This document shows positions 3,528 through 9,782 of a stretch of 22,927 nucleotides of DNA, in pieces; within the stretch, counting starts at the first letter, position 1, and each line of letters starts with the position of its first letter. Under the pieces are notes generated by a model. That model did no database searches, was not told where the DNA came from, and worked only from the letters and a program-made list of their open reading frames with translations. The DNA comes from a virus. The translations under genes were made by a program, and so were the position numbers. The stretch covers positions 1-22,927 of IMG/VR virus record IMGVR_UViG_3300009605_000158. One strand, written 5' to 3'.

Positions 3528-3594
3528 AAGAAAGATCATTTCTTCGTGTGCAGATGCCTGTCTGGAAGCGGTAGAGCAAGTATTATCTAAGTAA
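3424..3594 (+). CDS. 56-residue phage protein of unknown function (helical)
   Basis: ATG preceded by AAGGA with an eight-base spacer. The product (MLEKMVVQVLKDNKEEIVDY, then INQKVDIPLIGEKTERKI) has regular helix-like amphipathic spacing. Its 'K-x-D-I-P-x-I-x-E-x-T-E' core resembles small proteins found beside phage lysis genes; I recognise the pattern but no named function. It ends 12 bases inside the convergently transcribed integrase gene, marking the end of the rightward late unit. It is more convincing than the overlapping C-terminus of the 3285 frame. Confidence 0.6.
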   Translation: MLEKMVVQVLKDNKEEIVDYINQKVDIPLIGEKTERKIISSCADACLEAVEQVLSK

Positions 3595-4578
3595 GTAGTC
3601 CCGGAGTATCTCTTTTGGTACTTCATTCGCATAAATCTCTGTAGTCTTAACGCTTGAATGCCCTAAGAATTGCTGGAGCATATCTTTAGGCATCCCATTT
3701 CTCAGTGCTTTCTTAGCGTAAGTATGTCTAAATGAGTGTAGAGAAACCTTGTTTTTCTTACAATAATCCCTACCTAGTAGTTCGTTTATAAATTTAAGTG
3801 GTGTTCTACGTGCTGACTTCAGTTTAGCCCAGAAGAATAAAATATCCCCAGAGGACTCCACTATTTTCTGCACAGTTTCGTTAACTGGCACAGTAACCCA
3901 TTTCTCAGGTTTATGCATCCAAACTCTCATAAACATACCGTCTTTATCTTTGATGAAATTCTCCTGGGTTAAATCCCAGGCGTCAGTTGGTCTTAGTCCC
4001 GTTTCTAAAAGGAACACAAAGAACTTATGAAAAACACCCGATTTACGAAGAATTAACCCAATCTCCTCCACACTAAAAGAGTAGGGTAAGCGTACCTCTT
4101 CTTTCAAACGATCCACACGCAGAGCAACATTGGTTTTAGCTCTCTCATTCTTAACACAATATTCAAAGAATCTCCTAAAATGAACAATATGCCTATTAAC
4201 AGATGAATTAGCCATAGTACCCTGCAAGGTGGCTATATAATTCTCAATATCACTTACCCTGTACTCATCCACATATTCTTTAGATATGGTCGTATACAGC
4301 CGTTTCAGAGATGATAGAGCGTGTGATGCATTGCCACGTGTTTTGTGTCTACCCTTAAAAGCATTCTTGATATCATAGTGGCGAAACATAAACCTGTCAA
4401 GCTCATTTATGAATGAATATTGTTTAAGAGTGGAAGTTTTATTTTGTAAAACATCAAGCACGTATGCTTCAGCGAGTGCCTGTGCTTTCTGCTTATCTGG
4501 TGATAGGGCCTTACGTAAACGCTTACCTTGAATACGCTCATCCATATACCATATTTTGTGTCTTTTAAATAGTCTCAT
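3583..4578 (-). CDS. int: Tyrosine recombinase / phage integrase
   Basis: The 331-residue site-specific recombinase would integrate and excise the phage. An N-terminal arm-binding-like region (about 1-45) and a SAM-like core-binding region (about 55-155) precede the catalytic domain. Catalytic residues are visible: R196 in TGLRPTD, a Lys in the beta-hairpin (K223 or K226, HKPEKW), H281 and R284 in HSFRHTY, H307 in LGHSS, and nucleophile Y316 in TEIYANE. I chose the ATG at 4578 because AAGGAG lies six bases upstream; an in-frame TTG at 4608 lacks a ribosome site. Its start codon lies in a 9-bp hairpin (4572-4606). The gene is adjacent to a tRNA-Ser fragment (4662-4698), its likely recombination target. 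It converges on the lysis cassette. Confidence 0.97.
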   Translation of the reverse strand: MRLFKRHKIWYMDERIQGKRLRKALSPDKQKAQALAEAYVLDVLQNKTSTLKQYSFINELDRFMFRHYDIKNAFKGRHKTRGNASHALSSLKRLYTTISKEYVDEYRVSDIENYIATLQGTMANSSVNRHIVHFRRFFEYCVKNERAKTNVALRVDRLKEEVRLPYSFSVEEIGLILRKSGVFHKFFVFLLETGLRPTDAWDLTQENFIKDKDGMFMRVWMHKPEKWVTVPVNETVQKIVESSGDILFFWAKLKSARRTPLKFINELLGRDYCKKNKVSLHSFRHTYAKKALRNGMPKDMLQQFLGHSSVKTTEIYANEVPKEILRDYLLR

Positions 4579-4606
4579 TTGCTTCTCCTTGTGTCTTAAA
4601 TGAGAC
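4572..4606 (-). promoter_or_regulatory. Hairpin enclosing the integrase ribosome site and start codon
   Basis: On the minus strand GTCTCATTT is followed 17 bases later by its exact complement AAATGAGAC. The 9-bp perfect stem contains the integrase ATG (4578-4576) in its 3' arm, and the loop contains AAGGAGAAGC, the Shine-Dalgarno. In mRNA this could limit initiation, or the dyad could be a DNA operator or integrase site. Seen directly; the regulatory role is inferred. Confidence 0.55.
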
Positions 4607-4661
4607 AAAAACCAGTGCTTTTAAGGAGTCTTCACGAGGAGAGAAATAGCAGAGGAATATT

Positions 4662-4698
4662 TTAGCAATCCGCTGCATTACCGCTCTGCCAACTCTCC
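4662..4698 (-). other. attP: attP core candidate: exact 5' half of tRNA-Ser(GCU)
   Basis: Read on the minus strand, 37 bases fit positions 1-38 of a serine tRNA (no position 17): acceptor GGAGAGT, TG, D-arm GCA/TGC with A14, G15, G18, G19 and A21 in place, A26, anticodon 5' stem GCGGA and loop TTGCTAA with anticodon GCT (4666-4664). The match stops exactly at the end of the anticodon loop. The next bases (AATATTCC) do not pair with GCGGA, where a real tRNA would continue TCCGC. No variable arm, T-arm or CCA end follows, so it is not a gene. It lies 84 bases upstream of the integrase start. This is what an attP core with crossover in the anticodon loop looks like. Confidence 0.8.
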
Positions 4699-4710
4699 AA
4701 CGGTCATTTT

Positions 4711-4726
4711 CACGACCAGAGTCGTG
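4711..4726. other. 6-bp hairpin CACGAC-CAGA-GTCGTG next to the tRNA half
   Basis: A perfect 6-bp inverted repeat with a four-base loop, 12 bases beyond the 5' end of the tRNA fragment. It may be an integration-protein site or, if the host identity block extends this far, part of the pre-tRNA leader. There is no T-run, so a terminator role is unlikely. Confidence 0.35.
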
Positions 4727-4798
4727 AGAAATTCCCTATTTGGGCTCCGGCTTTTGCCGTGTTGTGTCTTACTTGGGTCTTTTTTAACATCTAAATTG

Positions 4799-4820
4799 TG
4801 GGTCATAATTCTTTGACCCA
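4799..4820 (-). terminator. Weak dyad at the repressor stop codon
   Basis: TGGGTC (4799-4804) and GACCCA (4815-4820) form a 6-bp stem over a 10-base loop at the 3' end of the repressor gene, including its stop codon. No clear T-run follows directly on the minus strand, so it is at best a weak or processed 3' end. A third related copy (TTGGGTCTTTTTT) lies nearby on the plus strand. Confidence 0.25.
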
Positions 4821-5438
4821 ACATATTTTATGTATGAATTGTATATCTTTTTTAGATATTGAAATATTATCTGAATTGTATTTTATAATTTCTATAGAAT
4901 CCCCATTTTCTTTTAGTTCGCCTATTATAACATCACCGTTATTTAATCTAAATATACACCTGTCTTTGGAGTGTGTTTCTAGGGTAGGTGATACTATAAC
5001 AATTTGGTGTGGTTTAAATGCTGGGTACATAGAATCACCCTCTATTAGTATTCCATAAGCATTCTGATCTGTCAGTCCGTGTGGTCTGCTGACATACATA
5101 TCTGCTTCACCCTGGGGATAATCGTCTACTGAATCTATGCCTAGTCCTGCTGATGCCATTCCAACTACTGGGATAACGCCACCAGGTGAGAGCATTTCAC
5201 GGGGGAGTGTGGCTTCCTGTTTTGGATTGCGAAATTCAATTGTTGCCCCATCTGTTTCACTTACCAGACCTAAGACTTCAGCGAGTCTGTCAACAGAACT
5301 CTTCCTCACGATTACATCCTCTTTTAGCCATCTATCTATTGTCAATCTAGACATTTCAGTCAGCCTGGCTAATTGAGATATATTATAATTGGAAGCCTTG
5401 ATTGCTTCCCTGATTGTATTTCCGAGTTTTAAATTCAT
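4803..5438 (-). CDS. cI: CI/LexA-type repressor (HTH + S24 peptidase)
   Basis: The 211-residue lysogeny repressor has an N-terminal helix-turn-helix around residues 18-40 (NISQLARLTEMSRLTIDRWL). Its C-terminal S24 self-cleavage domain shows the Ala97-Gly98 cleavage site (MASAGLG), Ser136 in GDSMYP and Lys176 in GELKENG, with spacing like LexA and lambda CI. RecA filaments would therefore trigger self-cleavage and induction. I chose the ATG at 5438, with GGAGAAGC upstream; a further 50 in-frame residues upstream are Tyr/Ile/Asn-rich translation of the AT-rich control region. It is divergent from the early operon (5603), the classical repressor/early-promoter arrangement. The start lies within an 11-bp hairpin. 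Confidence 0.95.
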   Translation of the reverse strand: MNLKLGNTIREAIKASNYNISQLARLTEMSRLTIDRWLKEDVIVRKSSVDRLAEVLGLVSETDGATIEFRNPKQEATLPREMLSPGGVIPVVGMASAGLGIDSVDDYPQGEADMYVSRPHGLTDQNAYGILIEGDSMYPAFKPHQIVIVSPTLETHSKDRCIFRLNNGDVIIGELKENGDSIEIIKYNSDNISISKKDIQFIHKICWVKEL

Positions 5439-9428: not shown

Positions 9429-9782
9429 ATGGAATCTGAATCCTTACATTTAGTGAACAAGGGGCTGGCAGATGAAATTAAAACGCTGTCGGCCCGTGTT
9501 GCCACCAATGAGAAACTGCTTATCTTGTGTTTAGATATGATTAAGAATTTTGGTCACTTTATTCCAAATGCAGTAGAGAAATTTAACAAGGAATTTGATA
9601 GAATTCGGGGTGTAGGGGCAGACGATCAGGCTTTGTCGGATAAGCCAATAGACACCTATCTCGATGGGAATCCCAACCACCCTTTGGATGACAACCCCTT
9701 GGGCGAAAACCCCTTGGGCGAAAACCCGTTGGGTAACAATCCCCTGGGTGACCACCCCGAAGACTTACAAACGGATGAGTAA
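9429..9782 (+). CDS. Early protein with NPLG(E/D/N) pentapeptide repeats
   Basis: The ATG follows the previous stop with no gap. The first 60 residues are helical (possible coiled coil, SLHLVNKGLADEIKTLSARV). The C-terminal part has a tandem five-residue repeat: HPLDD, NPLGE, NPLGE, NPLGN, NPLGD (residues 84-108), then an acidic end. Function is unknown; the repeat may be a flexible spacer or binding surface. The last eight bases overlap the next start. Confidence 0.65.
   Translation: MESESLHLVNKGLADEIKTLSARVATNEKLLILCLDMIKNFGHFIPNAVEKFNKEFDRIRGVGADDQALSDKPIDTYLDGNPNHPLDDNPLGENPLGENPLGNNPLGDHPEDLQTDE
9678..9752 (+). repeat. Five tandem 15-base units (N-P-L-G-x)
   Basis: Five consecutive 15-base units, the central ones nearly identical (AACCCCTTGGGCGAA twice), encode H/N-P-L-D/G-E/D/N inside the gene at 9429. 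The copies have diverged mostly at third positions and the last codon, suggesting expansion followed by selection on the peptide. Confidence 0.85.

Follow-up and report, generated by a model that had tools for sequence, protein, structure and literature searches.

Organization of the locus

The window, by which we mean the whole 22.9-kb stretch of DNA analysed, encodes terminase, portal and capsid proteins, which identifies it as a tailed temperate phage. On its minus strand, a repressor gene (5438-4803), the 5' half of a tRNA-Ser(GCU) gene (4698-4662) and a tyrosine integrase gene (4578-3583) follow one another, with one strand used throughout. The integrase catalytic residues R, H-x-x-R, H and Y were visible in ETGLRPTDAW, LHSFRHTYA and LGHSSVKTTEIYA. 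Elsewhere in the window, at 9664-9780, short tandem repeats ENPLGENPLGENPLGNNPLGDHP lie within a coding stretch of the open reading frame list. The features of the region, all on the minus strand, are the following.

3583-4578, minus: tyrosine integrase, ATG start at 4578 (ORF translation, domain matches)
4589-4598, minus: arm-type repeat TAAGACACAA, integrase side (repeat search)
4631-4643, minus: further copy of the CTCTnnTCGTGA motif, integrase side (repeat search)
4638-4660, minus: degenerate inverted copy of tRNA positions 1-20, hairpin partner of the half (pairing and folding analysis)
4662-4698, minus: tRNA-Ser(GCU) 5' half, position 1 to anticodon loop, putative attP homology block (sequence match, Rfam, intact-gene comparison)
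4664-4672, minus: probable core, where exchange would occur near tRNA positions 27-35 (from the identity limit and flanking symmetry)
4707-4730, minus: inverted repeat TTCTCACGAC-TCTG-GTCGTGAAAA, kept in the relative, candidate binding site (sequence comparison)
4762-4771, minus: arm-type repeat TAAGACACAA, repressor side (repeat search)
4773-4781, minus: second, imperfect repeat AAGACCCAA, repressor side (read from sequence)
4803-5438, minus: CI/LexA-like repressor carrying an S24 peptidase domain and oriented toward attP (ORF translation, domain matches)

The 5' half of a tRNA-Ser(GCU) gene

The 37-mer GGAGAGTTGGCAGAGCGGTAATGCAGCGGATTGCTAA at 4662-4698 occurs once in the window, and shuffles of the sequence gave an expectation of 0 chance copies at up to three mismatches. 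It comprises the 5' strand of the acceptor stem, the whole D arm, the 5' strand of the anticodon stem (GCGGA) and the loop TTGCTAA. Intact tRNA-Ser(GCU) genes read TCCGT after this loop, and the identity of the phage with them ends directly after TTGCTAA. The shared block thus runs from tRNA position 1 to a point inside the gene, as in elements that integrate by a 5' tRNA fragment. A first-pass annotation of this DNA had recognized the tRNA-Ser(GCU) 5' half, and the exact, single 37-mer ending with TTGCTAA bears this out. It had also stated that unrelated sequence replaces the 3' stem; the stop of identity was confirmed, but the following sequence is not unrelated, since 4660-4638 is in large part the complement of tRNA positions 1-20.

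No tRNA gene was detected by ARAGORN in the 22.9-kb window, which may be incomplete. Rfam returned a tRNA match below threshold (18.1 bits, with a gathering score of 29) that spans 4698-4637 and pairs GGAGAG with a downstream CTCTCC. Neither program found at 4662-4698 the complete cloverleaf with a T arm that a functional tRNA gene would have.

A relative with the same integrase

The integrase was found at 87-88% amino acid identity on one other viral contig, IMGVR_UViG_3300025131_000338 (loci L002, L147 and L204). This relative carries the tRNA half at the same place, with 36 of the 37 bases equal and a single change, C to T, in the D-loop; its tRNA identity likewise ends after TTGCTAA. About 90 bases upstream of the half are well conserved between the two phages. 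The bases right after the break differ, AATATTCCTCTGC in the window phage and TTTACCCTTTGT in the relative, and agreement resumes at TATTTCTCTCCTCGTGA.

The gene upstream of the half in the relative encodes a different, HTH-like protein with no Pfam match, again on the same strand as the half. Between window 4803-5438 and L002 3014-3748 the upstream gene is wholly different, while attP and integrase are kept; as judged from the two sequences, this difference is a module swap ending near attP.

Searches with the integrase, the nuclease and the attP motif yielded no phage relative beyond L002, and no homologue of integrase or attP was present in the terminase relatives L205-L212 (66-90% identity; contigs or fragments of 4-13 kb). 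Absence of the fragment from related phages had been named beforehand as grounds for abandoning the attachment site reading; the sole relative available keeps the half.

Architecture of the putative attachment site

The tRNA-gene fragment adjoins an intact tyrosine integrase gene, and the arm-type repeats TAAGACACAA, putative binding sites, flank the core on both sides, both as expected of an attP. The flanking repeats complete what is predicted to be an attP of about 200 bp between repressor and integrase. Identity with intact tRNA genes extends to base 37, and in both phages CTAAnnTA stands immediately 3' of CGGATTG, with the rough mirror CTGCATTA on the other side. This identity limit, together with the mirror, favours an exchange around positions 27-34.

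The 37-mer is thus very probably the homology block of a phage attP that recombines with the host tRNA-Ser(GCU). The neighbouring genes, the repeats, the half kept in the relative and the matches to intact genes all support the earlier proposal of an attachment site built from the 5' half, the evidence from phages comprising two sequences only. Counting against it are the match of gut Alphaproteobacteria to the 37 bases, the lack of an integrated copy and of a clear promoter in the gap separating half and repressor, and the 3' arrangement of the distant integrase relative in G171, all described below.

The probable host

A relaxed-pattern scan of bacterial genome contigs gave at least 111 loci; among the matches listed, most were from Alphaproteobacteria, with a few from Marinimicrobia, Bacteroidota and others. 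Exact 37/37 halves within intact tRNA-Ser(GCU) genes were found in Marinimicrobia SP3060 (L040) and in three gut Alphaproteobacteria (L027, L054 and L074). The 37-mer was present in 11 of 245 Marinimicrobia genomes, once in each, and, with C and T counted as equivalent at the D-loop base where the two phages differ, all 11 copies showed 0 mismatches. These genomes are treated as one group, as read from the listing order and three titled loci. In 10 of them, tRNA-Ser(UGA) immediately precedes the tRNA-Ser(GCU) gene; the other (G162) has another tRNA further upstream. A terminator-like hairpin comes next wherever the contig continues.

Tetranucleotide usage of the phage correlated with that of the Marinimicrobia 37-mer loci (median r 0.46) and hardly with that of the other loci (0.02); the p value of 1e-6 is indicative only, given that the loci are related to one another and no more than 3-8 kb long. 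Relatives of the integrase at E<=1e-15 (26-43% identity) were also detected in 11 of the 245 Marinimicrobia genomes, and five of these (G160, G164, G171, G173 and G174) are listed in the same stretch as the genomes with the 37-mer. The terminase was discarded as a host marker, its matches of about 25-34% identity occurring in both groups. We conclude that the host is probably a marine bacterium of the Marinimicrobia (SAR406).

The same attachment site could instead serve an alphaproteobacterial host, which we regard as unlikely. The 37/37 halves of the three gut genomes would fit this, and the 111 or more loci of the scan indicate that further hosts exist; yet tetranucleotide usage sets those gut loci apart from the phage (r -0.14 to 0.13), and no integrase relative at E<=1e-15 was returned from 385 Alphaproteobacteria genomes, an empty answer that counts as weak negative evidence. 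The expectation that the 37 bases by themselves would identify the host was therefore borne out in part: they point to a Marinimicrobia group, but gut Alphaproteobacteria match as well. With Marinimicrobia as the probable host, an exact 37-base sequence ties an uncultured temperate phage to SAR406 and can be searched for in single-cell genomes.

Two further loci were noted during these searches. In SAR116, a pair of tRNA-Ser(GCU) copies at L085:329-2570, one of them intact, was considered as an insertion and rejected: the locus is a tandem duplication, with paralogous genes, of the tRNA-Ser(GCU) and its neighbouring gene, and the second of these tRNA copies is truncated, breaking off behind the anticodon arm. 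A terminase homologue at L271 (G026:C231:9453-10610) is read through 14 TGA codons, which suggests a TGA-recoding phage.

Predicted integration and restoration of the tRNA

In the proposed model, the integrase would recombine the phage half with the matching half of the host tRNA-Ser(GCU), with a crossover at the anticodon stem-loop. The restored tRNA would then consist of the phage 5' half and the host 3' half and would lie behind phage sequence on the repressor side. The host's own 5' half would be displaced next to the integrase gene, and transcription from the host promoter, which lies ahead of tRNA-Ser(UGA), would run through this displaced half toward the integrase. Since the restored tRNA would start with the phage half, this geometry implies that it has to be transcribed from the phage flank, in which a repressor-type gene is oriented toward it. 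A promoter search revealed no clear site in the stretch that separates the half from the repressor; the best candidate lies inside the repressor gene (4952-4924, 10/12 with TG), and the relative gave no candidate on the strand of the half. Read-through from the repressor gene is therefore possible.

No integrated copy of the window phage was found in the 245 Marinimicrobia genomes, an absence that shows little, and the junctions are predicted ones. This absence, like the difference in the bases after the break between the two phages, would also suit a half that is the relic of a past integration or of an imprecise excision and is no longer an active attP. We consider this very improbable, given that 36 of 37 bases are kept across two diverged phages beside an intact integrase, that the half is still identical to living tRNA genes and that arm-type repeats flank it.

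The inverted copy and the hairpin

The inverted copy across the core is the only unusual element of the putative attP. Folded as RNA, the 62 bases of half and inverted copy reached -25.4 kcal/mol (z -4.1) in the window phage and -26.3 kcal/mol (z -5.4) in L002. When only the bases downstream of an unchanged half were shuffled, equal pairing was obtained in 1 of 2,000 shuffles for the window phage and in 0 of 2,000 for L002. The repeated motif CTCTnnTCGTGA may account for part of this effect. Differences in the stem between the two phages preserve the RNA pairing through G-U or improve it, although covariation cannot be shown from two sequences.

Candidate roles of the hairpin are symmetrical protein binding on DNA and, at the RNA level, a fold formed by the displaced half. 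It is conceivable, but rather improbable, that the integrase transcript of the lysogen has a leader in which the displaced front of the host tRNA forms the hairpin, and that this structure limits read-through into the integrase from the host tRNA promoter or permits processing of the upstream tRNA-Ser(UGA). If functional, a hairpin built against a host tRNA sequence would be new.

A very improbable alternative is that half and inverted copy are mainly a structured RNA, a leader hairpin or a tRNA decoy, with attachment occurring elsewhere. A strong hairpin in both phages and the sub-threshold tRNA match would agree with it, but a hairpin needs no exact identity with a tRNA half that includes unpaired loop bases, the half is devoid of a T arm, and its place beside the integrase and the repeats fits an attP. 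The two roles are mutually compatible.

Comparison with known systems

In the Islander collection, 3' tRNA fragments mark 3,760 islands and 5' fragments 159, for a total of 3,919; 2,083 are anticodon-centred (PMC4383910). Like these 5'-fragment elements, the window phage has a putative attP with the 5' part of a tRNA, a predicted crossover of the anticodon-centred class and a tyrosine integrase; unlike them, it was not found as an integrated copy and has an extra inverted copy of the tRNA front across the core. Restoration of a tRNA behind element DNA has been described for archaeal pTN3-like elements and is seldom encountered in bacteria (PMC8371274). As predicted here, their restored tRNA is transcribed from element DNA and not from its original promoter; they are archaeal and split their integrase gene, whereas that of the window phage is unsplit (PMC8371274). 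The tRNA-dependent lysogeny of mycobacteriophages likewise involves integration into an essential tRNA gene, which is predicted here, but combines a shared core of about 10 bp with a whole replacement tRNA (PMC10865867). The window phage shares 37 bases, and no tRNA gene was seen in the 22.9-kb window, which may be incomplete; it thus lacks there the short core and complete same-isotype tRNA of that system.

Comparable halves occur in other phages. In a family of T7-like temperate phages, an integrase is followed by a tRNA-Ser(GCU) 5' half and then by the phage RNA polymerase gene (half at L117:942, L162:5956 and L174:2064, and on the minus strand of L125 and L182); these halves match Rhodospirillales-type genes (GGAGGGATGG...TTGCTAATCC). 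The five phages share with the window phage the tRNA half and the break just past the anticodon loop, but differ in having genomes unrelated to its own, another integrase, another gene order and no significant hairpin. A convergent acceptor complement noticed in them by eye was dismissed, its pairing not being unusual against shuffled downstream bases. A third, unrelated phage (L158:5343) also has an integrase and then a tRNA-Ser(GCU) 5' half, here without the acceptor complement.

The distant integrase relatives in Marinimicrobia adjoin tRNA genes. Two of them (L258 and L259), in which the tRNA 5' end is turned toward the integrase, were for that reason first read as 5'-side elements. This reading was withdrawn, since G171, the sole distant relative traced end to end, shows with both ends the classical 3' arrangement: a tRNA-Phe 3' fragment is displaced beside the integrase and the intact gene stands 10 kb away. 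That 10-kb integrated element (L265:1391-11390, G171 contig 22) carries a helicase/restriction-like gene. In G171 and the window phage alike, it is the end of the homology block that looks toward the start of the integrase, so that the two arrangements may be regarded as one geometry in which the tRNA is turned round.

With the Islander 5' islands and tRNA restoration behind element DNA already described, the putative attP of the window phage belongs to a known, uncommon kind. It adds a clear example of an arrangement that leaves a host tRNA, apparently present in one copy, dependent on the phage for its front end and presumably also for its expression.
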